Shown here one piece after another: positions 18,616 to 34,077 of a stretch of 64,000 bases of DNA. A program made the position numbers and the translations under genes. Source of the DNA: Roseovarius faecimaris (GTDB lineage Bacteria; Pseudomonadota; Alphaproteobacteria; Rhodobacterales; Rhodobacteraceae); assembly GCF_009762325.1 (NCBI RefSeq), contig NZ_CP034348.1, positions 440,501-504,500 of the forward strand, given 5' to 3'. Positions within the stretch are counted from its first letter, which is position 1, and each line of letters starts with the position of its first letter. The notes below the pieces were generated by a model that did no database searches, had not been told where the DNA came from, and saw only the letters and a program-made list of their open reading frames with translations.

Positions 18616-19989
18616 ATGGCAATTCTTGATGTTTTTCTTCCAGCCGCGTCGGGTCGCGAACCCGATGACAGGCTGCTTCAGAATCTCAAGGACTACACGT
18701 CGATTTCGTTTGCCTTGATTTGGCAGCGCCAGGCAATTTTTATTGCCGCCTCGTTGCTGACCGCCTTCTACTTCGATGCTGCGAATGCCGCTGTTTTCTA
18801 CTGCACGATCGTGTTCTGCGAAATTCAGGACATCGTGATCGCACGGCGCGTCAAACGGCTTGAGCCGCACGAGCATGAGGCGATCCGAACCAACTTCATA
18901 TGGATCATGCTCAACACGATGCTGAGCTCGGGCGCAATTTGCCTTTATGCGGTATCGGTTGCCCTGAAACAGGACACAGGCGGGCATTTTACGCCGCTCT
19001 TCTTCCTGTTTGCTGCCGCTCTCTTTGCGGCGATGAACAACCACCAACTGGTTAAGGTTCTGACACTCCGTCTTGCGATGTACGGGATATCCTTCCTGTT
19101 TATCGTGTGTTTCGATATCTGGGTGACACGGCCGAGCCTTGAGTCAGAGCTGTGGCTGCAATTCTTCACGATTGTCTTCGTGATGTACTTCCTGATCGAC
19201 TGCTCGATTGTCTATCTCAAACTCTATCGCAAGAACCTGGCGCAGCTCGAAGCCTTGCGGCAGGAGCACGAGCTTACCAAGGCGGCCTATGTCGCCAAGA
19301 CGCAGTTTATCTCGACGGTCAGCCATGAGCTGCGTACGCCGCTCACCTCGATCAAGGGCTCGCTGGATCTGATCAATTGCGGTGCCTTGGGAGAGGTGCC
19401 GGAGAAGATGAAAACCGTGGTGGACATCGCCACCAAGAACAGCGAACGGCTTTCGAACCTGATCGACGACGTGCTGGATGTACAGAAGATCGAAGCGGGC
19501 GAGATGTCATATAGCTTCAAGATACTGGACGTACGCGATTTGGTAGAAGACGCTGTGGCCAGCAATGAGGGCTATGCCGCCAGGTATAACGTGACCCTGG
19601 AATACGATCCGCTGGGAGAGGCGCCGCTTCTGATCGAAGGCGACGAAAAACGCCTGATGCAGGTGATGTCCAACATGATCTCAAACGCCGCGAAGTTTTC
19701 GCATGAAGGTGGAACGGTCACCGTCGGATGCCGACAGCAGAATGGCAAGATCCGTATCTTCGTACAGGATCGCGGTTATGGCATTCCCGCAGGCTGCGAG
19801 GACAAGGTATTCGATCGGTTCAGTCAGGTGGATTCGTCCGACCGCAGATCGGTCTCGGGAAGCGGCCTGGGCATGAACATCTCCAAAGAGATCGTCGATC
19901 ACCACAAGGGCAACATCGCCTATGACAGCACGCTTGGCGAAGGGACCACTTTCTATGTCGAGTTTCCCGAGGTGCTGAAGTTCAACTGA
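18616..19989 (+). CDS. Membrane sensor histidine kinase
   Basis: A 457-residue protein. Residues about 35-205 contain roughly five or six hydrophobic segments with almost no periplasmic domain, so it probably senses a ligand in the membrane. A short coiled coil leads to HisKA with H237 in STVSHELRTPL, then an HATPase_c domain with N-box (MSNMISNAAKF), DRGYGIP, and GSGLGMNISKEI. It is a full kinase without a receiver. The response regulator at 21633 is the nearest likely partner, separated only by the P450 gene on the other strand. Confidence 0.9.
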   Translation: MAILDVFLPAASGREPDDRLLQNLKDYTSISFALIWQRQAIFIAASLLTAFYFDAANAAVFYCTIVFCEIQDIVIARRVKRLEPHEHEAIRTNFIWIMLNTMLSSGAICLYAVSVALKQDTGGHFTPLFFLFAAALFAAMNNHQLVKVLTLRLAMYGISFLFIVCFDIWVTRPSLESELWLQFFTIVFVMYFLIDCSIVYLKLYRKNLAQLEALRQEHELTKAAYVAKTQFISTVSHELRTPLTSIKGSLDLINCGALGEVPEKMKTVVDIATKNSERLSNLIDDVLDVQKIEAGEMSYSFKILDVRDLVEDAVASNEGYAARYNVTLEYDPLGEAPLLIEGDEKRLMQVMSNMISNAAKFSHEGGTVTVGCRQQNGKIRIFVQDRGYGIPAGCEDKVFDRFSQVDSSDRRSVSGSGLGMNISKEIVDHHKGNIAYDSTLGEGTTFYVEFPEVLKFN

Positions 19990-19998
19990 GGTCGGCCT

Positions 19999-21342
19999 TC
20001 AGAGGGGTTTCGCGTTCAGAATCATCGGACCTTCGGGGCGCATCGTGAAGGTGAGCACCGGCCGCGGGATCGGGATATCGGACAGCGAAAACGCGATGTT
20101 GCGCAGCACACTGGCCATGAGAACCATGATTTCCGTTTCCGCATATTGCGCGCCAATACAGACCCTGGGGCCATCGCCGAACGGAATGAACTGGCCACGC
20201 GGATAGGTCGTGTTGAGAAAACGGTCGGCCTTGTAGGCATCTGGCGCATCCCAAAGCTGATCGTTGCGATGAAGCGAATAGACCGGGAAAAAGAGCGCAT
20301 CGCCCTTCTTGAAGGTGATGCCCTTGATGGTCAGGGTCTCAGCGGCGTCGCGTGCAAAGAACGCGGCAGAAGGATAAAGCCGCAGGGTCTCACGGATATG
20401 AGCGCGCAGGAGCTTCATCTCCTGAACATTTTCGAAGGTGATCGGATCGGTTGGATTGATCGACCGGATCTCGTCCCGAATAGCGCCCTGCACATCGGGG
20501 TTCAGCGCGAGCAGATAATAGCCCCAGGCCAGCGCATTGGCGGATGTTTCATGCCCTGCGACCACAAAGGTGAGCAGGTTGTCGACCGTCGTTTCGATAT
20601 CCTCGAAATCCTCTTGAAGCGCCGCGATCATGAGATCGAGGAAATCCAGCGGGATGGGCCTGTTTTCCGCACGGCGGTTCTCGATCACTTGCCGGGCCAG
20701 CTTGCGCATATCCGTGACCGGGCGCTTGCTTTCAAGCCATTTCCTGCGCGGGATCCATTTGGGCAGCTGCATCAGATCGAAGAGTGAAATCGAGGAAATA
20801 TATTCGAAATAGTTCTTGAGGCCTGCACGGATTTCCGCGGCGGACACCTCCTCGTTCCCCGAAAAGATCACGCGTGAAATATTGGTGAGCGTCGAGGCAG
20901 GTGCCATCTGGGTGACATCGACATGCCCCTCACCCTGTGCCAGTGACGCCGCCACCTCAAGGCCGGTTTCAGCGAAATGCTGGGCCAGCATGGGCAGGTT
21001 CCGGGCGGCAAAAAGAGGAGAGTACCGCTTGCGCTGTTGCTTCCACTTCTCGCCCTCGGACAGGATCAGCCCATTCCCGACGGCCGAGCCGATGATGTCT
21101 TTGGTGAACTTCGCCTTTGGAAACGACCGTCCCGCTCCGACAAGGAGCTCGGTGATGATCGCGGGGTCGCAAAGATAGTGAATATTGAGCGGGCCACGCA
21201 GATAGGTTTGGTGAAGGGTCTCGGCCGGAATGACCTCAAGCATGTTGCGGCCGGCGAGCCGCGCAAATTCCAGCAAGCCGACAGGTTCTGTCGCCAGCTT
21301 TGCCGCAATTGGCGCTGCATCGCTGGATAACGTTTGGTTCAT
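19999..21342 (-). CDS. Cytochrome P450
   Basis: A 447-residue haem monooxygenase. The start at ATG 21342 fits the normal length; the frame runs on to 21489. Motifs: I-helix AGHETSA, ExxR in ETLR, and the haem loop FIPFGDGPRVCIG with C395 as the iron ligand. The N-terminus has no membrane anchor, so it is soluble. The sequence type resembles bacterial CYP4/CYP102-like fatty-acid hydroxylases rather than the terpene or steroid groups. No ferredoxin partner gene is adjacent. It ends 9 bases from the end of the convergent histidine kinase gene. Confidence 0.9.
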   Translation of the reverse strand: MNQTLSSDAAPIAAKLATEPVGLLEFARLAGRNMLEVIPAETLHQTYLRGPLNIHYLCDPAIITELLVGAGRSFPKAKFTKDIIGSAVGNGLILSEGEKWKQQRKRYSPLFAARNLPMLAQHFAETGLEVAASLAQGEGHVDVTQMAPASTLTNISRVIFSGNEEVSAAEIRAGLKNYFEYISSISLFDLMQLPKWIPRRKWLESKRPVTDMRKLARQVIENRRAENRPIPLDFLDLMIAALQEDFEDIETTVDNLLTFVVAGHETSANALAWGYYLLALNPDVQGAIRDEIRSINPTDPITFENVQEMKLLRAHIRETLRLYPSAAFFARDAAETLTIKGITFKKGDALFFPVYSLHRNDQLWDAPDAYKADRFLNTTYPRGQFIPFGDGPRVCIGAQYAETEIMVLMASVLRNIAFSLSDIPIPRPVLTFTMRPEGPMILNAKPL

Positions 21343-21515
21343 CGCCCGGGGCCTCAGTTGAATTCTGAAACAAGATGCGCCTCGTGGCTCGGTCATGCTT
21401 GAGCGCGGCACGGCACGCCTGACAAAGCCCGGAGTCACAGGGGAACTCGTTAATCGTAATCCAAATCGAGTCTGGAGAGCCGCGGTCACGTTTCCCCAAA
21501 GTCATAGTTAGTAGA

Positions 21516-21534
21516 CGCCGCCAAAGAAGCGGCG
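21516..21534 (-). terminator. Small hairpin between the response regulator and P450 genes
   Basis: CGCCGC and GCGGCG pair around a 7-base loop. It lies after the response regulator gene and before the P450 gene in the minus sense. There is no U-run, so it is a weak terminator candidate at most. Confidence 0.3.
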
Positions 21535-21632
21535 CAATTGAGTGGTGATAAAAAGGTTAACGACCTGCGACCACTAGAGCAAGACCAGCAGGACGACAGA
21601 TCAAAGATATTGCTGGGACGACCCGGTAGGGC

Positions 21633-22778
21633 TCACCGGTGCATCATGAAGTTCTCTTCGCCATAAAGCTCGTTCAGCACCGTTTCATAGATGCTTCTCT
21701 GATCCTTTGCATGCGCGGATTGCGCCGCGTTCAGCTCATAGGCTTCGGCGTTCTGTTCGGCCTTGCACAGCTCATTCTCAAGCTGCTGAACTGCAGTGAC
21801 CGCTTTCTGGACCGCATTTGCGGCTCCGGTGCGGGACAGCACACGCAGGCCCACAGGATTGCCGACGAGAACTTCGATCCGGTCATCGCTGATATGCTGA
21901 CGGATCTGCGCCCCCAGATATTCACCGAGATTGTTCGAACTGACGATGAAATCCGAAACCTTCCGTCCGTGGATGATCAACAGGAAAACACCGCCTCCCC
22001 GATAGGAGAAGACGCAATCGAGATCGCTGATCGCGCTTTGGATACCGTGAGCCATTTCCCGGATCACTGAGCGAAAACCGGAACAGCCGGCCAGATCGTA
22101 GAACAGCTTGGCGTCATGCAGCATGATCGAAATCGCCTGCGAGCTGAACAGCTTGCGTCGCGCCAGTTGTGCAACGTAGTTGTCAAACTCGATATAGCGC
22201 AGCGACTGCTTCACACCTTCCAGCGAGAGCGGATCCTCGAAATTGAACTCGCGTTCCTGCGCCCAGCCACGATCGGGGCCAAGGCGGTGCTGTTCTTTCA
22301 CTTCGGCCTTGCGGCGCGCCTCGACCTGCGCATGAGCGCGCTTGATCCGGCTGCGCAGCTCCAGAAAGTCAAAGGGCTTGTTGACGTAGTCCGACGCGCC
22401 TTCCAGGAAGGCGTGGTCGATGTATTTGCGGTCACTCATTGCCGTCAGCATCAGGATGGGCGTATCGGCATATTCCGGCAATATACGGATTTGCTTGAGA
22501 AGCTCGATTCCGTCCATTTCCGGCATTTGGATATCAAGCAGGAAACAGTCAAACGGCTTCTCGGAATCCATCACCCATTCAAGAGCGTCGGCTGCCGAAC
22601 TCGCGATTTCCACATTGTAGTTCTCAAGCGTTTCCAGCGCGGTCTTCACCAGCTCGAGAATGCTCAGTTCGTCGTCCACGACAAGGATTCTGAACGCGGT
22701 GCGATCTGCCGCATTCTCCTCGAGTTTCTCCAGAAACCGGTCTTTCTGCTTCACTATATCTTGCATGCCCTTGCCCAT
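21633..22778 (-). CDS. Response regulator with a degenerate GGDEF output domain
   Basis: A 381-residue protein. Receiver domain at about 28-150: acidic pair DD (35-36), phosphoacceptor D82 in FLLDIQMPEMDG, and K134 in NKPFDF. A linker is followed by a GGDEF-like fold at about 195-330, recognisable from ISIMLHDAKLF and the hairpin position, but the signature GGDEF is replaced by YRGGGVF (259-265), so cyclase activity is unlikely. It may bind a nucleotide or a protein. The C-terminus (about 315-375) is a coiled coil. Start is either 22778 or 22766. Same strand as the LuxI-like gene and the P450. Confidence 0.85.
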   Translation of the reverse strand: MGKGMQDIVKQKDRFLEKLEENAADRTAFRILVVDDELSILELVKTALETLENYNVEIASSAADALEWVMDSEKPFDCFLLDIQMPEMDGIELLKQIRILPEYADTPILMLTAMSDRKYIDHAFLEGASDYVNKPFDFLELRSRIKRAHAQVEARRKAEVKEQHRLGPDRGWAQEREFNFEDPLSLEGVKQSLRYIEFDNYVAQLARRKLFSSQAISIMLHDAKLFYDLAGCSGFRSVIREMAHGIQSAISDLDCVFSYRGGGVFLLIIHGRKVSDFIVSSNNLGEYLGAQIRQHISDDRIEVLVGNPVGLRVLSRTGAANAVQKAVTAVQQLENELCKAEQNAEAYELNAAQSAHAKDQRSIYETVLNELYGEENFMMHR

Positions 22779-22959
22779 CCATCGGGAGTTTGGACATCTT
22801 TTATCGCTGATAACTGTGCGGAATTTGAGGCGAAATTAATACGGATTTACAGCGTTTTAGTCGAAATAGGTCTAAATTTTGGCAGTGTTGAAAAAGCGGA
22901 AACAACTTGTTCCGGTTCGCAAACAGCGTCGGTGTGGCTGTCTGAAGCCCCGATAAAGG

Positions 22960-23706
22960 TTAAAGCGTGAAGTTCCGGGCTTCGAAAAGCACCGATTGAC
23001 TGCTCGTGCCATCAATGGAAAACCGTGTGCCGATCGGTGTGGCCGAGACGCCGATCCGCCGTGCCCAGCGAGACCAGATCGCAGGCACCACGCCGAGGAT
23101 ATAGGACCCTCCGTTTTCCACCGCGGTCTGGCTCATCGACCGAAAGAGAAGCGCCTGAACCTTCAGGCGCTCTGTCGCGGGGACGGCATCGGTTATGAAA
23201 AACCGGGTCGCCTCCCAGACGTTGTGCTCCACCGGGGCCGGAAAAAACAGGATATCCGTGGGCAGATCTTCAAGCAGTCCAAGCTGCGCATCGCGCAGCA
23301 TGTAACTGTAAATACCGCATTTTGCAGTGGTTGGCAGCATACGCACGCCGCCCAGGATCTGGCCAAACTGGTGCAGGATGACCCAGCGCGCGAAGGGGGT
23401 GTCGTACTGGTCGAACTCCATCCCGTCGGCCTCGGACACACTCCAGTCAAACTTGTCAATGAAGATGGATTTTCGCGCTTCAAGGTAGCGGGTGAGCAGC
23501 GTACCATGCTCGTGCATGTTGCGAAAGCACAGCGTATCCGTACTGATCCGGTCAACCGTATCAGTTTTTCGGTAATCCAGGTGCGCATTGTTACTAGTTA
23601 CTTTTGGCCTAGGCTCGCTGTTGCGAACGTCGGCAGAAATTTTATGAGCGCGTAACGTTTCGTGGGTACTGGCCTCTGCCTGAAAAGGCAGCCACGTGCG
23701 GTTCAT
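22960..23706 (-). CDS. LuxI-family acyl-homoserine-lactone synthase-like protein
   Basis: A 248-residue frame with a GNAT-like LuxI fold. Family landmarks: FDWSVSEADGMEFDQYDTPF (W, D-x-x-D-x-Y-D core), GGVRMLPTTAKCGIYSYML, and VWEATRFFI. It should make an acyl-homoserine lactone or a related signal from SAM and an acyl donor. LuxI proteins normally begin about 25 residues before the conserved W, which would put the start at the internal ATG 23517; the first 63 codons may be a real N-terminal extension or untranslated. No LuxR-type gene is nearby. Confidence 0.75.
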   Translation of the reverse strand: MNRTWLPFQAEASTHETLRAHKISADVRNSEPRPKVTSNNAHLDYRKTDTVDRISTDTLCFRNMHEHGTLLTRYLEARKSIFIDKFDWSVSEADGMEFDQYDTPFARWVILHQFGQILGGVRMLPTTAKCGIYSYMLRDAQLGLLEDLPTDILFFPAPVEHNVWEATRFFITDAVPATERLKVQALLFRSMSQTAVENGGSYILGVVPAIWSRWARRIGVSATPIGTRFSIDGTSSQSVLFEARNFTL

Positions 23707-23889: not shown

Positions 23890-24711
23890 TCAGCACGCCT
23901 GGCTGGCTTTTTGTCGTCCGTAGACGGTTTTCCAATGCGCCATCGCCGACGTGACGCTGGAAACAGGAAGGGCCGCCACGATCAGATCGCGCCCGTCCGA
24001 GACCACAAGGGCCTGAACATCGGTCGAGATGGGAAAAGCCGCAAGGTTAGGGCTCGGCCGGTCCAGTTGGCGATGCCCGTTTCTCGCCGCGTGTTCGGCC
24101 CGGATTTTTTGCTCAAGCGCGGTGAGGCATTTGAAAAGCTCCGGGTCCGGGGCATGCGCCACCGGCTCACTGTCGCCGGCGTGGAAGATCCACCCCTGCG
24201 AAACCGGATGCACAGTCTTCAGGAACGCCTTCAGGCGGTTCTTGAAGTAAGGTGTTTCGCTGAACTCGGTCAGATGCCGTGCCGAGCAGGCGTCGCTGCC
24301 GGTCGAGACATTGCTCGCGCGGCCCATCAATCTCAGCACAAGAAGCTCAGATCGGGCGCTGAGCGCCCTGAGTGCCCGCGCATAGGTATTGGCCACGGCT
24401 TCGGGTGTGGCCTCCGTGCCCGCCTCTGTTTCGACCTTTCGGCCTTCGATAACGAGCGAAAGCAGACGGCGATTGGACGCGATCATGGTTGCAACTTTAC
24501 GCTCTCCTGAAAACAGGGCGTAGCGCCGTGGCAGGACGGTTTCATCAATCTCGCGCGCCAGGCCCTCGATCAGGTCCTTGAACCCGGAGGCCGAGAGGCT
24601 GGCCTCGCCAAGGAGCATCTCGTCCGGCAGCGTTAACCGCTCCACCACCGCGCGCAGGCGATGAGCCATCACGCGGTCTTCCGATTTGAGGGCTTTGGAT
24701 GTCCCATGCAT
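23890..24711 (-). CDS. Hypothetical protein, last gene of the kinase-GTPase locus
   Basis: A 273-residue soluble protein, helical in the first half, with no motif I recognise. The N-terminal 160 residues include RRYALFSGERKVATMIASNR and a region that reads like an alpha/beta sensory fold; a second such region follows at about 225-265 (DVQALVVSDGRDLIVAALPV). Its ATG overlaps the stop of the roadblock-like gene by one base (TGATG), so it belongs to the same transcript. It may be a partner or regulator of the GTPases. Confidence 0.6.
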   Translation of the reverse strand: MHGTSKALKSEDRVMAHRLRAVVERLTLPDEMLLGEASLSASGFKDLIEGLAREIDETVLPRRYALFSGERKVATMIASNRRLLSLVIEGRKVETEAGTEATPEAVANTYARALRALSARSELLVLRLMGRASNVSTGSDACSARHLTEFSETPYFKNRLKAFLKTVHPVSQGWIFHAGDSEPVAHAPDPELFKCLTALEQKIRAEHAARNGHRQLDRPSPNLAAFPISTDVQALVVSDGRDLIVAALPVSSVTSAMAHWKTVYGRQKASQAC

Positions 24712-25067
24712 CAGGCCGCCCTCGACATCTCAAGCAAAAGGCGCTGCGCCGCGCGAACGATCAGCGGCACATCTGCGGCGGTGTCGCAGACGCAGCAAAT
24801 CACGTCCGAATCCTGTGTGATCGACCGCACGAAGATGCGCACCTCGTCCGGTGTCGCGACAACAACCAGGTCATTGCCCGCGCAGACAAAGTCGGACAGG
24901 GCAAAGTTGAAGTCCGCCTGATGCAGGATTTCTTCCAGATACTCGTGTTTGTAGGGTTTGGATGCGCTGGTGCGCAGGGCAAGCCCGCTCGACAATTCCC
25001 CAAAAGAGACAAGTGTGCATCCTGGCACACTCTGGCGGAGTTCATCCAAACGATCCGAAAGACTCAT
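24711..25067 (-). CDS. Small roadblock/LC7-like protein
   Basis: A 118-residue protein. The predicted order is helix, strand pair (CTLVSFGELSSGLALRTSAS), long helix, strands (DLVVVATPDEVRIFVRSI, then DVICCVC) and a final helix (VPLIVRAAQRLLLEM), the layout of the roadblock/LC7 (MglB) fold. Roadblock proteins commonly bind small GTPases as activating or scaffold partners. Three GTPase-like genes lie just upstream in the same operon, which fits. The assignment rests on fold pattern, not on a signature motif. Confidence 0.5.
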   Translation of the reverse strand: MSLSDRLDELRQSVPGCTLVSFGELSSGLALRTSASKPYKHEYLEEILHQADFNFALSDFVCAGNDLVVVATPDEVRIFVRSITQDSDVICCVCDTAADVPLIVRAAQRLLLEMSRAA

Positions 25068-25092
25068 TCAGCCCTCCTTTGGGGCGTCCCTT

Positions 25093-26025
25093 TCAAGTCA
25101 GGTTAACCAGATCACCCGGCGCCGGGCGCGTGGTGCGTCCCCTCATTTCCGTCAACACGCGCACGCGCTTGGGCACCACGCTGGTGGCCCCATAGTCCGC
25201 AGGGGCTTGCGCGGGTGTTTCAGGCTGCTGCTCAGCCTTGGTATGATCGGCGGTTTCGGACGGTTCCTCCACCGGTGCGGGTTGTATCTCCATAGGCTCG
25301 GCTGACCGGGGCTTGGGGTTGGGGTTCACCAGATATTCAACCAGGATGTCGATGAAATCCGCAGCCCCGCTGGCTGTCCATTTCACCTCATCTTCGCCTG
25401 CGGCGATGGCATCGGTGATCGACAGTGGGAACACATGCCGGAACTGGCCTTCGGTTTCCTTGCGCACGCGCATCAGAACCCGCTCCAGGTCGCGCTCCGA
25501 GCGCAGCTTGTCGACCTGTGTCACAACGAGAATATTGTCACCATTGGTACGCGCGGAAATGTCCTCCCAGGTGGCCGCTTCGGACTGCCGCCAGGCCTGC
25601 GTGGCCTGAGTGCACCAGACAACGCTGTCCACTTCATCCATCACCGACATCCACACATCCGACGACATGTTCGGATCGGAAATACCGGGCATGTCGATCA
25701 GATCACAGATTTCCAGCGTTTCCGAAGGATTGTAGAGCTTGATCATCCTCGTGTCTTCGATCCGCACCTGATCGATGTCCTCGATGTCGATCGGGGTTTC
25801 GGTCCCGTCATGGCCGACGGCGAAAGCCGCGCTCTTGCCGTGGGTGATCCAGACCGGCGGCAGGCGCGTTGCGGTCACCTTGACCGGAACCGGGGCATCG
25901 CCGAGAAGAAGCTTTGACAACGTGCTTTTGCCGGCGCTGAATTCACCGATCAGCGCAAGGCGCGTTTTGTGGGGAGGCAGCCCCATGCTGGCGTTTGCGT
26001 TCTCCAAGGTCGTCTCCTTCGTCAT
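25093..26025 (-). CDS. Dynamin/Era-like P-loop GTPase with acidic tail
   Basis: A 310-residue protein. GTPase domain at about 20-230: G1 GEFSAGKS (27-34), G3 DMPG (111-114) and a G4-like TQVD (169-172), with the strand order of the dynamin superfamily. GEFSAGKST is typical of bacterial dynamin-like proteins. Residues about 235-300 are a Pro/Glu/Ala-rich, probably disordered linker and a basic end (KRVRVLTEMRGRTTRP). No membrane segment. Start overlaps the stop of the larger GTPase gene (ATGA), so the two are probably made in fixed ratio, as are paired bacterial dynamins. Confidence 0.8.
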   Translation of the reverse strand: MTKETTLENANASMGLPPHKTRLALIGEFSAGKSTLSKLLLGDAPVPVKVTATRLPPVWITHGKSAAFAVGHDGTETPIDIEDIDQVRIEDTRMIKLYNPSETLEICDLIDMPGISDPNMSSDVWMSVMDEVDSVVWCTQATQAWRQSEAATWEDISARTNGDNILVVTQVDKLRSERDLERVLMRVRKETEGQFRHVFPLSITDAIAAGEDEVKWTASGAADFIDILVEYLVNPNPKPRSAEPMEIQPAPVEEPSETADHTKAEQQPETPAQAPADYGATSVVPKRVRVLTEMRGRTTRPAPGDLVNLT

Positions 26026-28085
26026 CGGGCGTAGCGGCGCAGGGTGTCGAGCACATCATCCAGGCGCTGACTGTGACGTGCGTGATCGGTTGTGTTGAAC
26101 AGCTCCTGAGCGCCGCTTTTGCGGTGCTGACCTGAAATCAGGTCGTTCAGAATAGCGCCCTGCTCCTGCAGGAAGTGTTCCAGTTCGACACTCAGCGCCT
26201 TGCGGATATCTGCTGTCTGGACGTCCTTCATCTGGGTCATGAAGTCTTCGGTTTCGGCGCTGATCAGCTTGCGGAACTGCTTGGCAAAGGCTTTGTAACC
26301 ACGTGTGCGCCTCCACCACATGCTCCACCATTTGTCATTGAAGTCGAGGGCGATGGTCTGCCCCAGAGCCACCGGAGACGGGATCTGAGGGACATCGGGC
26401 GCGGCAATCTCAATCCCTTCGACCGCCGGTCCGAAGCCCCGATACAAGAGCATCGCCACGTCGCCCAGGGCCTTGTCATAGATGTCTTCGGCGGTTTTGC
26501 GTGCCTTGTTCCCCATCGAGGAATAGGCCGAACGCAACAGGATGCGCAGCCCCGCTGGGTCGTATTCCCAGACATGCTCTTCGCCCCTGTTCTCCAGATG
26601 GCCAAGCAGGGAATGTGTCGCCCGTTCGATGAAAGTGGCATGCGCCCGGTCAGCCCGGTCATGATAATGCGCGAAAAGCTCCGAAAGGCTCTCTTCCAAC
26701 ATACCGAGACTGCTGCGTTGCACTTCGTCAAAGGCGCTGCGGATCTCGTGCATGGAGATGTCCGAGGTGAAGTTGTCGCCCTGAACAATGGCGCTGCGTA
26801 CGGCCTTCTGAGAGGTTGCAATCGCCACGGCGGACGCGGCGATCTTCTTCAGAACCGGTTGCCCGAGGCTTGCGACGGTCTGTTCGGACAAGGCCCGCAT
26901 GAGGCGTGGCAGCCCGGACATTTCCCAGATCAGTTCCTCTGCGGGCTCCTCGATCAGCGTGGAGCCGAGCACAGCCTTGGTCAGCGAGAGCAGCGCATCG
27001 GCGCTTGTCTCGTGCATTCCGTCGATCTCGCCGGTCAGAACCTTGTTTGCCCAGTAGGCGCTGCCAAAAATGATCTCGGCATTTTCCGGGCCGTTATGCG
27101 TCTTCAGCGTTTCGCGAATGCTGGCTTCGATCTCGACCATCTGGCTTTCGGGATTGGAAAGCTCGTCGATACGGTTCACAAAGATGATCACCTCGCGCGA
27201 TTTGAGGTTGGTGATCATGCGGATCAGGGCCATATCGACCGAGGTCAGGGCCTGCGCGGCAGAAAGCACCACCACACAGATGCGGCTGTCGCGGACTGCC
27301 TTGATCGTGACCATCTCGCGCATCATGAAGGTGTCGTTCACCCCCGGCGTGTCGCGGATGCACATCCGATAGGGGACAGTCTGGCAATTCAGGTAGAGCT
27401 CGGCAGAGCGGGTGATATCCGCAAAGCGTCCTTGCTCATCAATGGCCGGGTTTGGCGAGTCGACGTCGAAATCATCGCCCAGACAGATGTAACGCTCCAG
27501 GAGATTTTTGTCGAAATAGCTGTATTCATGCTCCTGACCCATGAGCAGTTCAAAGTGCCGCCCCAGCTTCTTGCGCGATTTTTCACGCATGGCGCTGATC
27601 TGTTCATGGATTTTGGTAAGCTCGCTTTCGGCACCGGCGCGATCTGCCAATTCACCGAGCCGCCCGCCCTTTGTCGTCAGCCGGTCCCACTCGTCTTCGG
27701 TCATGAACTGGAACTTGGCGCCGGTCTCGGCGCGTTCCTCGGCAGGGGTCAGGTGCAAAGAGGTCACCACCGATGTCCAGGGGTTGACGTCCGACGGCAG
27801 CAAATCGGCCCAGCCCGCCATGGCGTTGATCAACGCGGTCTTGCCCGCCTTGACCTGACCGAGCACGGTGACACTCGGCTCGAAGGAGGTCAGCTCCTTT
27901 TGCAGCCTGCGGAGGGATTTGCGCGAGTCTGAACCGGTGATTTGTTCAAGTTGCTTGAGCGCAAGCTCAAGCTCCTGCGCGTCGCTGGCGAAGGCGGCAA
28001 GCGTCTCCATACCCGCCCGGAGGCGGCTCGGGCCCGATGACGAACGGATCTCAGTCGCGGGATCAAACTTCACTTCGACGTTCAT
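26022..28085 (-). CDS. Large dynamin-like GTPase
   Basis: A 687-residue protein. GTPase domain at about 70-400: G1 GQVKAGKT (76-83), G3 DTPG (245-248), G4 NRID (304-307). Flanking helices at 25-70 and 400-560 would form the dynamin neck and trunk. Near residues 586-596 a WWSMWWRRTRGYK stretch, rich in tryptophan and arginine, could be the membrane-binding paddle. This layout fits membrane-remodelling bacterial dynamin-like proteins. Neighbouring kinase, phosphatase and FHA genes suggest control by phosphorylation. Its target membrane is unknown. Confidence 0.85.
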   Translation of the reverse strand: MNVEVKFDPATEIRSSSGPSRLRAGMETLAAFASDAQELELALKQLEQITGSDSRKSLRRLQKELTSFEPSVTVLGQVKAGKTALINAMAGWADLLPSDVNPWTSVVTSLHLTPAEERAETGAKFQFMTEDEWDRLTTKGGRLGELADRAGAESELTKIHEQISAMREKSRKKLGRHFELLMGQEHEYSYFDKNLLERYICLGDDFDVDSPNPAIDEQGRFADITRSAELYLNCQTVPYRMCIRDTPGVNDTFMMREMVTIKAVRDSRICVVVLSAAQALTSVDMALIRMITNLKSREVIIFVNRIDELSNPESQMVEIEASIRETLKTHNGPENAEIIFGSAYWANKVLTGEIDGMHETSADALLSLTKAVLGSTLIEEPAEELIWEMSGLPRLMRALSEQTVASLGQPVLKKIAASAVAIATSQKAVRSAIVQGDNFTSDISMHEIRSAFDEVQRSSLGMLEESLSELFAHYHDRADRAHATFIERATHSLLGHLENRGEEHVWEYDPAGLRILLRSAYSSMGNKARKTAEDIYDKALGDVAMLLYRGFGPAVEGIEIAAPDVPQIPSPVALGQTIALDFNDKWWSMWWRRTRGYKAFAKQFRKLISAETEDFMTQMKDVQTADIRKALSVELEHFLQEQGAILNDLISGQHRKSGAQELFNTTDHARHSQRLDDVLDTLRRYAR

Positions 28086-28227
28086 TCAACACCTGTTTTC
28101 CTTGGCCTACCGGGGCGGCATGCTCCCAACCTCAAACCGTTTACGCACTACAACTTAAGGCAGAAATGGCATCCGATTGTGGTGATAGTTTGGCAGCTGT
28201 GAGGGTAAATCTTGATAGAATCCGAGA

Positions 28228-29511
28228 TCATCCAGCAAGCTTTTGGGACAGCTCTTTGCGCAATTGCAGCATCAGAGTAACCGCATCCAGAGCCGCATCC
28301 TCGCTGCGTTCAAGCTGGAACAGCATGAGCATTTCCTCACCGTCCTGAATATCGTCCTGAACGGCCTGTTGCAGGGGATCGCCCTGCGACGCAGACTGCA
28401 ACAGTTCCGACACGGATTGCATCGCTTCGGAACAATCCGACAACAGCAGGTCCGTGTCGACATCCTCATGCTCATCCATCTCTCTGAGCATGCGCATGGA
28501 ATGCTGCTGAAGCAGGTCCACGGCCTCGGTCAACATTTCGAATGCTTCGGCGTTGCACTCAAACTCGACTGTATCGAAATCGCTTTCCGCCGTACTGCTT
28601 GGCAGGGCAACCAAAGTCGCGGTGGACGGAGGAGTAATCTCTTGTTTTTCCTCTTGAATTTCCGTTGTCGTGTGAGCCGTGTGCGGCATGCGCATCGCCA
28701 GACGATCCATGAAAATCCGGGCCTGATCGTAATCGGCGTTCCGGCCCTGGCGCACCTGACGCGACAGCAGTTCCATCAGTTGTTTGCCGCCACTTGACGC
28801 CCATAGGTCTTCATTCACTCTGTCCGAGCAGGTCTGTGCGGTGATCCCCTGAATGGTCGCCACCGGATAGAGGCCAAGAAATTCCTCCGCCACGATTGGG
28901 TCGAGCCGGTCAATGATATCGCCCAGCATGCCCCGCATCAGCTGCTGATCCGCCATAGTCAGAACGAGAAGACTGTGATCTTTCATATTGTCGGGGACGC
29001 TGGACCAGAGAGCCTGTTCTTCCTCTCCGAAATCCTGGCTGCACCACACGATCACATCCGCCCGATCAACAACGGCGTTCAGTGCCGCGCGTTTCTCAGC
29101 AAGGTCGCCAGTAAGGCCTATTTCGATGAATTCGTTTGAACTCAGCCTCTCGTCAGGTAATTCCTGTCGTATGCGCCGCGCATCCGACGGGCATGTGCAG
29201 TTTTTCAGGATACCCGCAACGGTCGAAACGGAGCCATCTTCGCGCGTGATGATCACCTGTTCGGTTTCGCCATAGGCAAGCTCGATCATCGGCGCGGTGA
29301 CATCATGGCCCAGCGCCGGCCGACCTGACATCATTTCGATCAGCGCGGATTTGCCGGTTCCCTCAAATCCCGTCACCACGACCTGTACCGGCTTCGTGAG
29401 ATGGTCGAGCAGACGTGCGCCCCAGCGGTCATAGGGATGCGGGAGTTGCCCACCATCCAGAACCTGCCCGAGACGGTCGATCACCGGGTCGATTTTCTTC
29501 GCAAAACTCAT
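28228..29511 (-). CDS. GTPase-like P-loop protein, third of the locus
   Basis: A 427-residue protein. Start ATG 29511 has GGAG 8 bases upstream; the frame opens earlier at 29601 inside the PP2C gene. G1 is GFEGTGKS (48-55), a strand then LTMADQ stands at the usual G4 place, but a clear DxxG is missing, so it may bind nucleotide without normal hydrolysis. Residues about 280-427 are acidic and helical (EMDEHEDVDTDLLLSDCSEA, DDIQDGEEMLML). It probably works with the two GTPases encoded downstream. A 142-base gap separates it from the next gene. Confidence 0.7.
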   Translation of the reverse strand: MSFAKKIDPVIDRLGQVLDGGQLPHPYDRWGARLLDHLTKPVQVVVTGFEGTGKSALIEMMSGRPALGHDVTAPMIELAYGETEQVIITREDGSVSTVAGILKNCTCPSDARRIRQELPDERLSSNEFIEIGLTGDLAEKRAALNAVVDRADVIVWCSQDFGEEEQALWSSVPDNMKDHSLLVLTMADQQLMRGMLGDIIDRLDPIVAEEFLGLYPVATIQGITAQTCSDRVNEDLWASSGGKQLMELLSRQVRQGRNADYDQARIFMDRLAMRMPHTAHTTTEIQEEKQEITPPSTATLVALPSSTAESDFDTVEFECNAEAFEMLTEAVDLLQQHSMRMLREMDEHEDVDTDLLLSDCSEAMQSVSELLQSASQGDPLQQAVQDDIQDGEEMLMLFQLERSEDAALDAVTLMLQLRKELSQKLAG

Positions 29512-29527
29512 CGAATTACTCCGGCTA

Positions 29528-30427
29528 TCACTGGACGGCTGTCTTTTTCCTGCGTGTGACCCGCGCGAGAATGGTGATGGTCTCGGTTTTCCCATCGCCA
29601 ATTCTGTTCAGTGTGTGGGTCTCGCTTGGGGGCGTGATCACACCACCTTCGGGTAAGAGCTTGATCACGCAGATCGACAGATTGTCCTGATCAGGATCGT
29701 CGAGTTTCTGGATTTCCTTGGTAAGCGCCGCGCTGATCTGTTCGGCGGTCGATTTTTGCTGAAACCTCAACACGCCTTCGATCTGGGCCTCAGAGATAAA
29801 CTGAATGCCGTCGCTTGCCGCGATGAGAATGTCCCCTTCTTTCAGCTGCATAGGGCTGGAGGGACAGTCAACTTGCGCGATCTCGCCGCCGATCAGGACG
29901 GAGGTCAGGCAGCTCTGATCCGGGTAGTTCTGCGCCTCTTCGCGATCCATGATGCCGGACGCAACGAGATACTCGATCTGCGAACAGAGCGCATGGTTCT
30001 CGTTCAGGCGCGTCAGCCTGCCGTCGCGGAACAGGTAGAGCGGGGAATCCCCCACAGAGACCCAATAGAGCCGATCCTCGATCAGCACCGGAGCGAGCAG
30101 CGTCGACCCCATCCCATGCGATTGCGCGTGTTCATGGGCGTAATGCCCCACGCATTGGTTGGCATGGGCCGCCGCGCCTTTGAGGACGTCTCCGATAGAG
30201 TGTTCGAGCTGTTCGGGATCACTCGATTTCAGCTTCAACTCGCTGAAAACTTCGGTCACGACGATCTTGCTGGCCATGTCGCCGGCCGCATGGCCGCCCA
30301 TCCCGTCGGCCAAGACGACAAATCCGAACGCCTGGCCACTGGGAAAATCCGACGCAAGCGCGTCTTCCTGGCGCTCCCTACGCCCAATATCAATGGACAT
30401 CGCGGTATCGTAGCTGAGATTAGCCAT
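29528..30427 (-). CDS. PP2C-family Ser/Thr protein phosphatase
   Basis: A 299-residue metal-dependent phosphatase. Start ATG 30427 overlaps the FHA gene by 8 bases. Metal-site motifs: RRERQEDA (E21, D22), VVLADGMGGHAAGD (D41), ASDGIQF, and DPDQDNLSICVI. No membrane segment. It most likely reverses the action of the kinase encoded two genes upstream. A short C-terminal tail (about 265-299) rich in Thr and Arg follows the core. Confidence 0.9.
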   Translation of the reverse strand: MANLSYDTAMSIDIGRRERQEDALASDFPSGQAFGFVVLADGMGGHAAGDMASKIVVTEVFSELKLKSSDPEQLEHSIGDVLKGAAAHANQCVGHYAHEHAQSHGMGSTLLAPVLIEDRLYWVSVGDSPLYLFRDGRLTRLNENHALCSQIEYLVASGIMDREEAQNYPDQSCLTSVLIGGEIAQVDCPSSPMQLKEGDILIAASDGIQFISEAQIEGVLRFQQKSTAEQISAALTKEIQKLDDPDQDNLSICVIKLLPEGGVITPPSETHTLNRIGDGKTETITILARVTRRKKTAVQ

Positions 30428-31649
30428 GCGCAGCACGCGCCTGATCCGGGGAGGTATTTTTCTCCCAAGAGAAATCAGGTCCACAGAGCGGCACGAAGCG
30501 CAGAACGGTCTCACCGATGGTGATGTGATCCCCGGCCGACAATTCTTCCGTGCTCAGAATGGGGCGATCGTTGCGACGCACGATGTTGGCCTTGCCGCAA
30601 TGCCCGATGAAGAAGCTTTGCTGGCGCGGATCGTAGGCGATGGAGGCATGCGCCTCGCGCGAAATGCTGTTGTCGCCGAAGTCGAGGCAGACGGTCTGGT
30701 CTTTACCGCGCCCGATATTGCTGACCCCGTTGAAAAGGGAGAAGGCCGAACCGCGCCCTTCGCCTTCCACGACGATCAGCCAGCCCACGGGGAAGCTTAC
30801 GAATGCCGCCGGTTCGGCCTCAGCGCTATTCTTGATCGGGTCGATCTCGTCGCCCATCGACGTATTGAAGCCAAGCAGCCGGGTCTTGACGCGTCCGTGT
30901 CGGCTCATACCGCGGCCCGGTGCGGGTTTGGGCACTTCCACACCCCCGGTTGCCACCTGAGCAGGGTGCGGCTGCACCGGGTCCGGGGTCTCTGCGCGAT
31001 ACTGCGGCGCTTCGGTCGGCCGGGCAGGGGCGGGTTCTGCAATATGCCCTTGCGTTTCAGGAGCCGGGTCCCTCACCGGGTCGGCCGCCGGGGCGTCCTG
31101 TGGCGCCTGCGGGGTTGTGTTGAGCTCCCGGAAGACATTCCGCAAGGATTGTTCAGACTCGCGTTCCTGATCCGGGGTGAGCGCACGCGCTTCAGGGACA
31201 AATGCGCTGAGATCCATTTCCTCGTCATCCTCATCGTCGGTCTCGTCCTCGACGTCGAGAGAGTAGGCTTTCCCCAGCACAAGTTTGCTGGGCCGCTGCG
31301 ATGGCTCGGCATCCGTCGGCGTCGACGGCTGATCCACCTGGACGGGTTCAGAGGTCAGATCGGGTTCAGGCATCTGGTCGAGCTCAGAGTCTTCATCGGA
31401 CTCAGATACTTGATCGGGCTCGACAGCGAAGGGATCGTCCTCATCTGCAAAGAAAGCAGCAAATTCATCGTCAGACTGCGCATCTGCGGGGATGTCGGCG
31501 CTGGCTTCGTCAAAGGATGTGAACGGCTCCTGCGACAGCACCTCGTCTTCCTGGGGTGTGTCCAGCGGCGCGGGCTCTGGCTCGGGCTGGCTGATCGCCC
31601 GTGCCCCCATCTGGCGCTTCTCGCTGATGATATCCCGAATTAACTTCAT
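30420..31649 (-). CDS. FHA-domain protein with long acidic N-terminus
   Basis: A 409-residue protein. Residues about 20-160 are strongly acidic and probably disordered (FAAFFADEDDPFAVEPDQ, ETDDEDDEEMDLS), and a Pro-rich linker follows. The C-terminal 120 residues are an FHA domain: SNIGRGKDQ, LDFGDNSISREAHASIAY (the Arg, Ser and His that hold phosphothreonine) and ADIVRRN-like NIVRRNDRP. It should bind phosphothreonine sites made by the adjacent kinase and so act as an adaptor to the GTPases. 11 bases after the kinase gene. Confidence 0.88.
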   Translation of the reverse strand: MKLIRDIISEKRQMGARAISQPEPEPAPLDTPQEDEVLSQEPFTSFDEASADIPADAQSDDEFAAFFADEDDPFAVEPDQVSESDEDSELDQMPEPDLTSEPVQVDQPSTPTDAEPSQRPSKLVLGKAYSLDVEDETDDEDDEEMDLSAFVPEARALTPDQERESEQSLRNVFRELNTTPQAPQDAPAADPVRDPAPETQGHIAEPAPARPTEAPQYRAETPDPVQPHPAQVATGGVEVPKPAPGRGMSRHGRVKTRLLGFNTSMGDEIDPIKNSAEAEPAAFVSFPVGWLIVVEGEGRGSAFSLFNGVSNIGRGKDQTVCLDFGDNSISREAHASIAYDPRQQSFFIGHCGKANIVRRNDRPILSTEELSAGDHITIGETVLRFVPLCGPDFSWEKNTSPDQARAAHG

Positions 31650-31660
31650 GCTGCTTCCTT

Positions 31661-33058
31661 TCAGTTCTGGGCCATTGCGGCCGAACGTTGTCTCAAACCT
31701 GTGAGTCTATGGAGAACACGGAGAAGGCCCGGCTCCGACTTTTTCTGACTTGCCTCTTCCGAGCCCGGCTTGTTATCCGGTGTCTCGCGCTTATTTGATG
31801 TCCGTTTTGACATTTTGTCTTGTTCTTTCAGCCACTTATCGATGTCATCAATGGGCTGGCCGAAAATATCCACCAGGGGATGCGGCTCTTCTTCGACGAT
31901 CTCTTCCTTGACCATCGCTTTTTTGACATCGCCGGGAAGCCCGGGCTCTACCTTGCTGTTGGTGTCTTCGACCAGCGACGAAATCTTCGCAATCAGATCC
32001 GGCGTCAGTTCAGCTTCGGGATTGGACGCCTGCGCAACGTTCTGCGCGGACTTATTGGCCTCGGCATCCATCTTGGTCGCAATCTTGTCAGCGTCCTGTG
32101 CGTCGAAGGCCATTGCGATGGGCGAAACCACCACATGCGAGCCGGGATTGTCGAGCACTTCGAGCCATTCGCCGACCGTCTGGAAGCGATCCTTCTGCGC
32201 CAGCGACAATGCCTTGTCGATTGCGCTCAGGAAGGATTTGTCGAACGACCAGTTCCCCGCGACCAGCGGCTTGTAGGGGTCTGGGTTCTCTGCGGTCAGG
32301 GCCGCGACACGCTTCTGGCAGTCGGGCGGCGCGAAACCGGTGATCAGGTGATAGAAGGTAGCCCCGACCGAGTAGATATCGCTGGACGGGCGCTGCTTGC
32401 CATCGGTGTAGTAGAATTCGTGCGGGGAATATCCATCCTTCACCGACATGACCGTCGAAAGCGCACGCGTCTGACGGGCGGCTTCTTCACGCGCAGCGCC
32501 GAAGTCGATCAGCGTAAGCTTGTCATTTGCGTCCAGAAGAATGTTGTCCGGAGAAATGTCGCGGTGCAGCATGCCCAGTTCATGAACATGCGCAAGCGCC
32601 GTCAGGGTGTCGCGCAGAAGCTGTTCCACCCGGGCATCGGTCAGGCGGCCGGGATCGATATCCAGCATGCTGAGCAGGTCCATGCCGTCGATATAATCCA
32701 TCGCGATATAGGCCGTGTTGTTCTCCTGGAACACCTGGTGGACCTTCACGATATTCGGGTGGTCGAACTTGGCCATACGCAGGGCTTCGCGCAGAAAATT
32801 GCGAATGACGTTCTGATACTGTTCCTGATAGGCCGGTTTGCGCGGACGGACCTCACCATTGATCCGGCGGCAGACGGAGCTTGGAAAGCATTCCTTGATC
32901 ACGACTTTGCGTTCAAGGCTGTCCTTGGCCAGATAGGTCATGCCGAACCCGCCATCAATCATGTGATGTTCGATGATGTACTGCCCGTACAAAAGGCTGT
33001 GGCCCGGCGCGAGGTCGTCGGTTTCAGCATCGCTCAGATTGGTGGCATTATGGTGCAC
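31661..33058 (-). CDS. Ser/Thr protein kinase, cytoplasmic
   Basis: A 465-residue Hanks-type kinase. Kinase domain about 24-305: glycine loop MIDGGFGMTY, K55 in VVIKECFP, catalytic HRDISPDNILL (D167) and DFGAAR (185-190). The residues after the core are low-complexity and helical, with many Glu and Lys, and there is no membrane segment or extracellular sensor. Probable substrates are the FHA protein, the GTPases and its own tail. A gap of 263 bases upstream provides room for its own promoter. Confidence 0.9.
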   Translation of the reverse strand: MHHNATNLSDAETDDLAPGHSLLYGQYIIEHHMIDGGFGMTYLAKDSLERKVVIKECFPSSVCRRINGEVRPRKPAYQEQYQNVIRNFLREALRMAKFDHPNIVKVHQVFQENNTAYIAMDYIDGMDLLSMLDIDPGRLTDARVEQLLRDTLTALAHVHELGMLHRDISPDNILLDANDKLTLIDFGAAREEAARQTRALSTVMSVKDGYSPHEFYYTDGKQRPSSDIYSVGATFYHLITGFAPPDCQKRVAALTAENPDPYKPLVAGNWSFDKSFLSAIDKALSLAQKDRFQTVGEWLEVLDNPGSHVVVSPIAMAFDAQDADKIATKMDAEANKSAQNVAQASNPEAELTPDLIAKISSLVEDTNSKVEPGLPGDVKKAMVKEEIVEEEPHPLVDIFGQPIDDIDKWLKEQDKMSKRTSNKRETPDNKPGSEEASQKKSEPGLLRVLHRLTGLRQRSAAMAQN

Positions 33059-33180
33059 GAAAGCTTCCCCAAAGGCTCGGTATGAAACAGTAGAAAACGC
33101 GGCACTGGTGAACAGTCGCTTTTAGGTTGCTGGAAGAATGTGCTCAAAACATGGCCAGAATTGTCCAAAGAGTCGGCAAT

Positions 33181-33195
33181 TGTCGAAGATTGACC
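33181..33195 (-). promoter_or_regulatory. Motif shared with the promoter at 34130
   Basis: GGTCAATCTTCGACA on the minus strand, 123 bases upstream of the kinase start. Thirteen of its 15 bases match 34144-34130, upstream of the other promoter of this locus. It may be a binding site for a common regulator. Confidence 0.35.
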
Positions 33196-33321
33196 AATGT
33201 TCGCGTGATGCAAAAGCGACGTGGCCGACAGATGCCAGCCAAGTTGAACAGTCACAAATTGTGCAAGGGAACGGCCCTATCGCCTCCGTCTGAAAGGTGC
33301 CAGGGACCGGGCGGTTTTCTT

Positions 33322-34077
33322 TCAGGCAGCAAGCCGTTCAGGCAGTTTCGGAGCGGCGAAGTCTCTGAGGGTCGTATAGACGAGCAATGTAGCACCGACC
33401 GGCGGGGTATAGATCAGCATCGTGGCCCCGAGCGCATAAATCGTCAGGCGCTTCTGCAGGGAAATCTCGTCTTCTTCCATACCGTCCATCAGGATCTCTT
33501 CGCGGGTCTCCACGATCTCGGGCAGTTTTTCAGCCGCCGGGACAATCGCGGTCTTGGGCAATGTCGCATCGAGCACGATATCGCGGGTCAGCGCGCGCGT
33601 GCGGCGCTGCGGCTGTTCGTCGGTATTGTCGGCTTCCATGAACTTCGTGGCCGTGTCTCCCATTTCGAGAATTTCGGCGACGGTGCAGACGAGGTCCATG
33701 TCGACCGGTTGTGTCGCATCAGCCTGGAATACCGTGTCGAACTGCAGATAGCTTTCCAAGTGGCTGATCAGCACGTCGCGGACAAACTCGCAGGTTTCCC
33801 GCGGAACGAGAATATTGCCGCCTTCCGTGGTATGCCCCACGGCAAAGACAAGCACGCAGTGCTCGCTGTCGCAGCGCGCTGGCAGCCAGCCAAGCAGAAC
33901 GCGCAGGCTGTCACGCTCGATCACGGCGACATTATCGCCCAACCAGGTCGAGCAGCACTTTGTCATACCATACGGCTGGAAGCTGGAGTCGAGATCGCCG
34001 ACGATCGTCCGAAAGAGCGCGGGCGACGGCGCGTTAAATTCGAGGGCCGCAATGGTCCCGTAAAACTGCTTGCTCAT
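33322..34077 (-). CDS. Hypothetical protein with C-terminal membrane segment
   Basis: A 251-residue protein. Start ATG 34077 follows an excellent site (AGGAGGT, 5-base spacing). Residues 1-130 look like an alpha/beta globular domain (FYGTIAALEFNAPSPALFRT, VLVFAVGHTTEGGNILVP). A disordered acidic linker (about 145-200) leads to one hydrophobic segment near the end (LTIYALGATMLIYTPPVGAT) and a short tail. It could anchor the locus products to the inner membrane. It is the first gene of the kinase-GTPase locus. No homologue family is recognised. Confidence 0.7.
   Translation of the reverse strand: MSKQFYGTIAALEFNAPSPALFRTIVGDLDSSFQPYGMTKCCSTWLGDNVAVIERDSLRVLLGWLPARCDSEHCVLVFAVGHTTEGGNILVPRETCEFVRDVLISHLESYLQFDTVFQADATQPVDMDLVCTVAEILEMGDTATKFMEADNTDEQPQRRTRALTRDIVLDATLPKTAIVPAAEKLPEIVETREEILMDGMEEDEISLQKRLTIYALGATMLIYTPPVGATLLVYTTLRDFAAPKLPERLAA

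Follow-up and report, generated by a model that had tools for sequence, protein, structure and literature searches.

A co-inherited eight-gene block sets a dynamin-like pair among kinase, FHA, phosphatase and roadblock-fold genes in Rhodobacteraceae

Introduction

A block of eight genes in a 64,000-nucleotide stretch of the Roseovarius faecimaris genome (contig NZ_CP034348.1, positions 440,501 to 504,500; henceforth the window) encodes a pair of dynamin-like GTPases together with the parts of a putative phosphorylation switch. All eight lie on the minus strand and, read along it from window position 33058 to 23890, encode a Ser/Thr kinase (g2), an FHA protein (g3), a PP2C-type phosphatase (g4), a degenerate GTPase (g5), a large and a small dynamin-like protein (g6 or DynL, and g7 or DynS) and two further proteins, g8 and g9. 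By sequence comparison the eight genes are a co-inherited block restricted to one mainly marine family, the Rhodobacteraceae, and we think it very probable that they function together. We propose that they constitute a phospho-gated dynamin system, confined to this family, whose GTPase pair would act on the inner membrane; for this mechanism as a whole we judge the chances of being right and of being wrong to be equal. What prompts bacterial dynamins to act is, as far as we know, poorly understood. A candidate answer is offered here by a single operon, which combines a putative switch centred on Thr256 of the FHA protein with a degenerate GTPase and a partner of roadblock fold.

Conservation and distribution of the block

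We searched 394 genomes of the same family for DynL, at a threshold of E 1e-10 or better, and found it in 101 of them. Gene order was compared across 101 loci (L012-L112), comprising 80 regions around DynL hits, 16 loci from named records (Roseovarius, Leisingera, Alexandriicola and one unclassified Rhodobacteraceae bacterium) and five plasmid loci. With iterative profiles, 66 of these loci proved fully collinear, the eight genes keeping one order and one strand. This held for 50 regions around DynL hits, for 15 of the named loci (the sixteenth breaks off at the end of its contig) and for one plasmid locus. Collinearity here denotes the order of matches to the eight profiles only, with intervening open reading frames (ORFs) possible, and the count becomes 65 when L017 and L033, apparently one locus, are taken together. 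A preliminary description of the window had let its reading stand or fall with the conservation of gene order in relatives, and that order is kept in these loci. The remaining 35 loci are incomplete, have been rearranged (L029, L030, L092, L093 and L095 are examples) or contain dynamin genes alone. The overlapping junctions reported earlier were also recovered, with 4 bases shared by DynL and DynS and 1 base by g8 and g9; the FHA and PP2C genes overlap by 8 bases if the latter starts at the ATG at 30427, or by 95 bases if it starts at the listed GTG at 30514.

The last gene of the block follows the dynamin closely. The g9 profile matched 86 of the 394 family genomes, all of them among the 101 DynL-positive genomes, and none of the 293 DynL-negative ones (Fisher p 1e-71, relatedness ignored), and 84 of 97 g9 places lie at most 6 kb from a DynL match. 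A class-wide search of 337 genomes with the DynL and g9 profiles matched only the window's genome and one other member of the family; three listed negatives in this sample also belong to the family, and 315 negatives are unlisted, their kinship unstated.

Three genomes carry two full copies on different contigs (L043 and L080 in G128, L041 and L073 in G266, L040 and L063 in G371), and in G253 the DynL and g9 matches fall on two contigs; the two-copy genomes hint at duplication or transfer. Possible broken copies were also seen: the DynL gene of L068 contains one in-frame TGA, and g5 of L025 is divided over two ORFs.

The distribution, patchy at 101 of 394 genomes and with some copies on plasmids, is what one might expect of an anti-phage defence system that would use a kinase-gated dynamin pair to protect or repair the membrane of infected cells. 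A phage-protective dynamin is reported from Bacillus (PMC8844932). PADLOC weakly matched both dynamins to LeoA/LeoBC (E 7e-7 to 5e-6); the kinase matched PD-T4-6 and mad6, which we take as generic kinase similarity, and no defence partner set accompanied the kinase and LeoA/LeoBC matches within the block. We know of no kinase, FHA or roadblock genes in LeoABC, the system behind the weak PADLOC match. LeoABC is reported to comprise multiple bacterial dynamin genes, in which it resembles the block (PMC4159319). Several results nevertheless speak against defence. Twenty plasmid records matched DynL, 18 of them across most of the protein, but all 20 are typed as non-mobilizable, and there was no DynL match in 50,697 phage records. 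Flanking ORFs scanned with PADLOC at 1e-10 (83 of 151 chosen ORFs, the longest non-overlapping ones, one per side, some possibly spurious) matched only mad3 (four ORFs), mad8 (two) and a GlgB-type model (one), and the 25 listed of 69 flanking Pfam families consist mainly of transporters, enzymes and proteins of the cell wall or flagellum. We consider a role in phage defence unlikely.

DynL and DynS resemble a solved bacterial dynamin pair

DynL (26022-28085, minus strand; 687 aa) and DynS (25093-26025, minus strand; 310 aa, a G domain with a variable tail) both match Pfam Dynamin_N (E 5.5e-14 and 6.4e-12). Profile searches of the PDB gave 5owv chain A as the best solved relative of DynL (E 8.2e-8) and 5owv chain C as that of DynS (E 4.2e-14), an entry that we take to be the Cj-DLP1/Cj-DLP2 complex of Campylobacter jejuni and whose chain lengths agree with this assignment. 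Among full-cluster copies, the P-loop and the DxPG motif are each present in 65 of 65 DynL sequences, and DynS has the P-loop in 65 of 65 and DxPG in 64 of 65. DynL and DynS are, on this comparison, a pair related to the solved one. Cj-DLP1 and Cj-DLP2, which like the pair described here are encoded by adjacent large and small dynamin-like genes, are reported to tether liposomes as a 2:2 tetramer (PMC6104087). The two systems differ in that DynS has 310 aa against 614 for 5owv chain C, and in that kinase, FHA, PP2C, g5, roadblock and g9 genes are added here. DynS of L030 reaches 586 aa, the stalks being compared by length only.

DynL contains a Trp/Arg-rich segment (residues 584-606; 26268-26336, minus strand) that is a candidate, and only a candidate, for lipid contact. 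Its residues W586, W587, W590 and W591 are invariant in 10 close relatives, and only W586 and W587 are at least 90% conserved among 51 sequences.

Apart from these, locus L032, on the Pseudomonas aeruginosa plasmid NZ_CP133095.1, holds a distant dynamin trio adjoining a WYL-domain gene, a helicase and an EH-signature gene, surroundings that we take to resemble a defence neighbourhood.

A kinase, an FHA protein with a candidate phospho-switch, and a phosphatase

The first three genes of the block were assigned to kinase, FHA and phosphatase families in the preliminary description, and Pfam agrees. g2 (31661-33058, minus strand) encodes a Hanks-type Ser/Thr kinase of 465 aa (Pkinase, E 2.9e-32) whose HRD and DFG motifs reach 90% conservation or more across an alignment of 75 sequences. 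The product of g3 (30420-31649, minus strand) has a long N-terminal region and a C-terminal FHA domain (E 1.8e-6), and that of g4 (29528-30427, minus strand) is a PP2C-type phosphatase (PP2C_2, E 5.7e-13) that also matches NCBIfam Stp1 (E 9.6e-41, below the curated cut-off).

In an alignment of 36 FHA proteins (the window's and those of 35 chosen loci), G313, R314, S330, R331, H334 and N355, which we take to be FHA core residues, are invariant. So are R253, T256, G260 and F261 just ahead of the domain, within residues 253-261 of g3 (RVKTRLLGF; 30867-30893, minus strand), and the resulting motif can be written R-x-K/R-T-x-x-x-G-F, with Q replacing K/R in L063. This pattern occurs in 77 of 78 FHA-family ORFs, 35 of which had informed it, versus one of 10,842 other ORFs of the same loci. 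A switch of the GarA/OdhI kind needs a threonine with preceding basic residues by the FHA domain, near kinase and phosphatase genes. In those proteins the phosphothreonine lies just N-terminal to the FHA domain, as the candidate one does in g3, which differs from them in its motif and its greater length; g3 matches NCBIfam OdhI at E 4e-5, below the cut-off. We regard the Thr256 motif as a candidate phospho-switch, a putative site that the preliminary description had missed.

How a signal might reach the kinase is suggested by its relatives. Hydropathy revealed no membrane segment in the window's copy, in keeping with the earlier view of it as cytoplasmic. Three clusters of secreted-type ORFs occur in 11 of 74 kinase loci, their representatives (one each) matching PBP_like_2 and OmpA, PilJ, and SBP_bac_3 (the last below cut-off); LysM and PstS labels for such ORFs are our own reading of their sequences. 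Of the 11 kinases at these loci 10 carry a membrane segment, versus five of the 63 others. Since the membrane segment tracks the secreted-type ORFs, this suggests, at least for the variants with a membrane segment, that the kinase is a sensor and that its signal lies at the envelope. Such kinases with periplasmic-type partner genes, apparent in some relatives, had likewise gone unnoticed before. In L047 (3265-4224), about 2.4 kb off the main block, a second PP2C gene adjoins two ORFs of LysM/solute-binding type.

A trio of this composition could instead belong to a type VI secretion outpost, regulating a secretion system encoded elsewhere, and type VI control had come to mind in the preliminary description too. 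Type VI secretion has a threonine phosphorylation pathway (PMC5995506). The genes of that pathway, PpkA, PppA and Fha, share the Ser/Thr kinase, PP2C and FHA domains with the block. VipB was found in 15 of 40 DynL carriers versus 7 of 40 non-carriers (p 0.08). The neighbours here, however, are dynamins, VipB/TssC had no match in the window's genome (a control genome matched), 25 of the 40 sampled DynL carriers are without VipB, and the nearest VipB on the same contig as DynL lies about 60 kb away (G300). On the strength of the window's genome and the 25 carriers we rejected the type VI link, and consider an outpost of this kind extremely improbable.

g5 is probably a decayed dynamin partner

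g5 (28228-29511, minus strand) encodes a degenerate dynamin-type GTPase with a conserved C-terminal segment, whose match to Dynamin_N (E 0.0052) is below the cut-off. The P-loop pattern is present in 51 of 65 full-cluster copies and DxPG in none of those 51, and so the three GTPases proposed earlier become two, DynL and DynS, with a degenerate third.

The origin of g5 was addressed with a tree of small GTPases (108 sequences from 60 chosen loci), which has a midpoint root and long branches and from which sequences without a P-loop had been removed beforehand. Full-cluster g5 falls together with the small proteins encoded after a second DynL in rearranged loci, and some of these proteins retain DxPG. 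The g5-type sequences alone form no exact split; with one addition, L112, they form a split with support 0.87, and full-cluster g5 together with L029 and L079 forms one with support 0.96. The second small partners of dynamin-only loci, and their one g5-labelled ORF (L102), are placed elsewhere in the tree. From this topology, g5 is likely to be the decayed small partner of a lost second dynamin pair.

g8 has a predicted roadblock fold and g9 perhaps ends in one

The 118-aa protein encoded by g8 (24711-25067, minus strand) had been called roadblock-like, and this holds at the level of the predicted fold. Its AlphaFold2 model (mean pLDDT 92.4) runs helix, two strands, helix, three strands, helix, and a Foldseek search of the PDB gave 3kye as the best match (E 1.8e-6, TM 0.77). 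Every one of the best 50 PDB rows is a roadblock, MglB, p14/MP1, LAMTOR/Ragulator or Rag-containing entry, two of them (5x6u and 5x6v) presumably so. We are confident, on the basis of this model, that g8 adopts a roadblock/LC7 fold. Sequence searches were less telling: a Pfam scan of the window's g8 and g9 proteins returned no family, and 47 g8 members compared with Pfam at E <=0.1 matched eight families, one member each and none named roadblock, including MAPKK1_Int (0.014), which we take to be a related fold. Profiles of g8 and g9 searched against PDB sequences gave nothing below E 0.1, the g8 matches being weak throughout (cvnB5 E 0.12, DLRR_I 0.37, Rv3364c 0.45).

For g9 (23890-24711, minus strand; 273 aa), the model has a pLDDT of 77.9 and a pTM of 0.53, and the N-terminal part is uncertain. 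Residues 156-270 match mostly roadblock-type chains, at Z <=7.3 (the caution level is 8), with phytochrome and designed-protein rows among them, and on this modelling g9 perhaps ends in a roadblock-type domain, another feature absent from the preliminary description. The top full-length Foldseek match is Mon1-Ccz1 (E about 3e-4 over about 280 columns; query TM 0.21-0.24, rmsd about 14), and a bacteriophytochrome ranks fourth; the Pfam matches of g9 members are single and unrelated. Because the superposition is poor, we rejected a Mon1-Ccz1-like reading of the whole length and retained the C-terminal one alone.

A further ORF of about 118 aa (cluster c6), found near the dynamin genes of 10 loci (L079, L094, L096, L100, L101, L102, L104, L105, L107 and L110) and associated with dynamin-only loci, looked on visual inspection like a roadblock protein, but no test bore this out: its one representative matched no Pfam family, no PDB profile match was found to E 0.1, and comparison with the g8 profile gave 2.5% probability. 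It was not used as evidence.

A roadblock-fold protein beside GTPases brings to mind polarity or surface-sensing complexes, in which the dynamin-type GTPases would serve as switches and not as membrane machines, like small GTPases with MglB or Ragulator. Myxococcus MglA-MglB (PMC9481161) and Rag-Ragulator likewise combine a GTPase with roadblock-fold proteins. Such a role would suit the fold of g8, the weak and partial resemblance of g9 to longin/roadblock complexes, a DynS that is almost solely G domain, and the presence of autoinducer-synthase-like genes near 15, and of response-regulator genes near 17, of the 101 loci. The GTPases here are, however, dynamin-type and not Ras- or Rag-like, and g8 is below Pfam detection; no small Ras-like GTPase of the MglA/MglB or conservon type was found in the cluster, whose P-loop proteins match Dynamin_N and not Ras families in Pfam. 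DynL, moreover, retains a long C-terminal half with the partly conserved Trp-rich segment, and the pair that DynL and DynS match best is one reported to tether liposomes (PMC6104087). We hold a pure switch complex to be improbable.

A proposed phospho-gated mechanism

We favour a mechanism in which phosphorylation gates the dynamin pair. The kinase would sense a signal, periplasmic in the variants with a membrane segment and periplasmic-type partner genes and cytoplasmic here, and would phosphorylate Thr256 of the FHA protein. Binding of this phosphothreonine by the FHA domain, either in cis or in trans, would alter how the FHA protein docks on the GTPase complex, with PP2C resetting the phosphorylation. 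g8, g9 and g5 could act as a scaffold for DynS and DynL and modulate their GTPase cycle. Once released, DynL and DynS would form an assembly on the inner membrane that tethers, fuses or reshapes it, DynL doing the membrane work, and the most likely role would be envelope maintenance under stress. The preliminary description had envisaged a phosphorylation switch over a dynamin complex with a roadblock partner, which fits the genomic and structural evidence, and had also counted in a ninth gene, which falls away, and a third GTPase, which proves degenerate.

Several observations weigh against this mechanism. The window's kinase gave only kinase families in Pfam and no sensor domain, and a g2-type kinase was not found within the fetched stretch of 26 of the 101 regions, so that the switch is not essential to the dynamins. 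The window's DynS may itself not touch the membrane, because there is little outside its G domain. g8 matches no roadblock family by sequence in Pfam, and the fold matches of g9 are modest and include unrelated rows, with Foldseek query TM values of 0.14-0.29. The co-occurrence and TM statistics, finally, are uncorrected for kinship.

Each of the component arrangements has precedent (dynamin pairs, kinase/FHA/PP2C trios, GTPase-roadblock pairs); their union is new as far as we found. Among the matches listed, we found no description for any organism of dynamin control through roadblock-fold partners, nor, in the open-access literature (most subscription papers lay outside the search), of a dynamin cluster with kinase/FHA/PP2C or roadblock genes. 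There is a real chance that the block is a new kind of regulated membrane machine. More tentatively, and with the balance somewhat against it, the block may be a bacterial form of regulated dynamin machinery, in which a receptor-like kinase, together with a phosphatase and an FHA switch, acts through a roadblock/longin-type scaffold and a degenerate GTPase to bring about signal-dependent membrane remodelling in Rhodobacteraceae. If true, this would join dynamins to the roadblock/longin GTPase regulators, both of which serve eukaryotic membrane traffic.

Neighbouring genes

The preliminary description had counted nine same-strand genes, of which the eight discussed above hold together. The ninth (33322-34077) was rejected as a member: it has no match in the 101 comparison loci and matches in seven of 149 family genomes, the window's own included, and in the genome of its only clear ortholog (53%) about 738 kb separate that gene from DynL. 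The membrane segment once ascribed to it is not borne out, its best 19-residue hydropathy being 1.47 against a cut-off of 1.7.

Scans for promoters (one site versus 4.2 in shuffles) and terminators (15 versus 12.1) were uninformative. A link to photosynthesis or intracytoplasmic membranes was unsupported, reaction-centre genes being present in 20 of 40 DynL carriers versus 13 of 40 non-carriers (p 0.17).

On the other side of the block, window positions 18616-23706 hold an autoinducer-synthase-like gene, a response regulator, a cytochrome P450 and a histidine kinase. The autoinducer-synthase-like protein (22960-23706, minus strand; Autoind_synth, E 3.9e-14) and the response regulator (21633-22778, minus strand; Response_reg, E 6.3e-29) belong to the flank, outside the core. 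Besides the counts given above for these two, related ORFs near the cluster include a cytochrome P450 in seven and a histidine kinase in 13 of the 101 loci, and the autoinducer-synthase-like, response-regulator and histidine-kinase genes may be neighbours by descent only.

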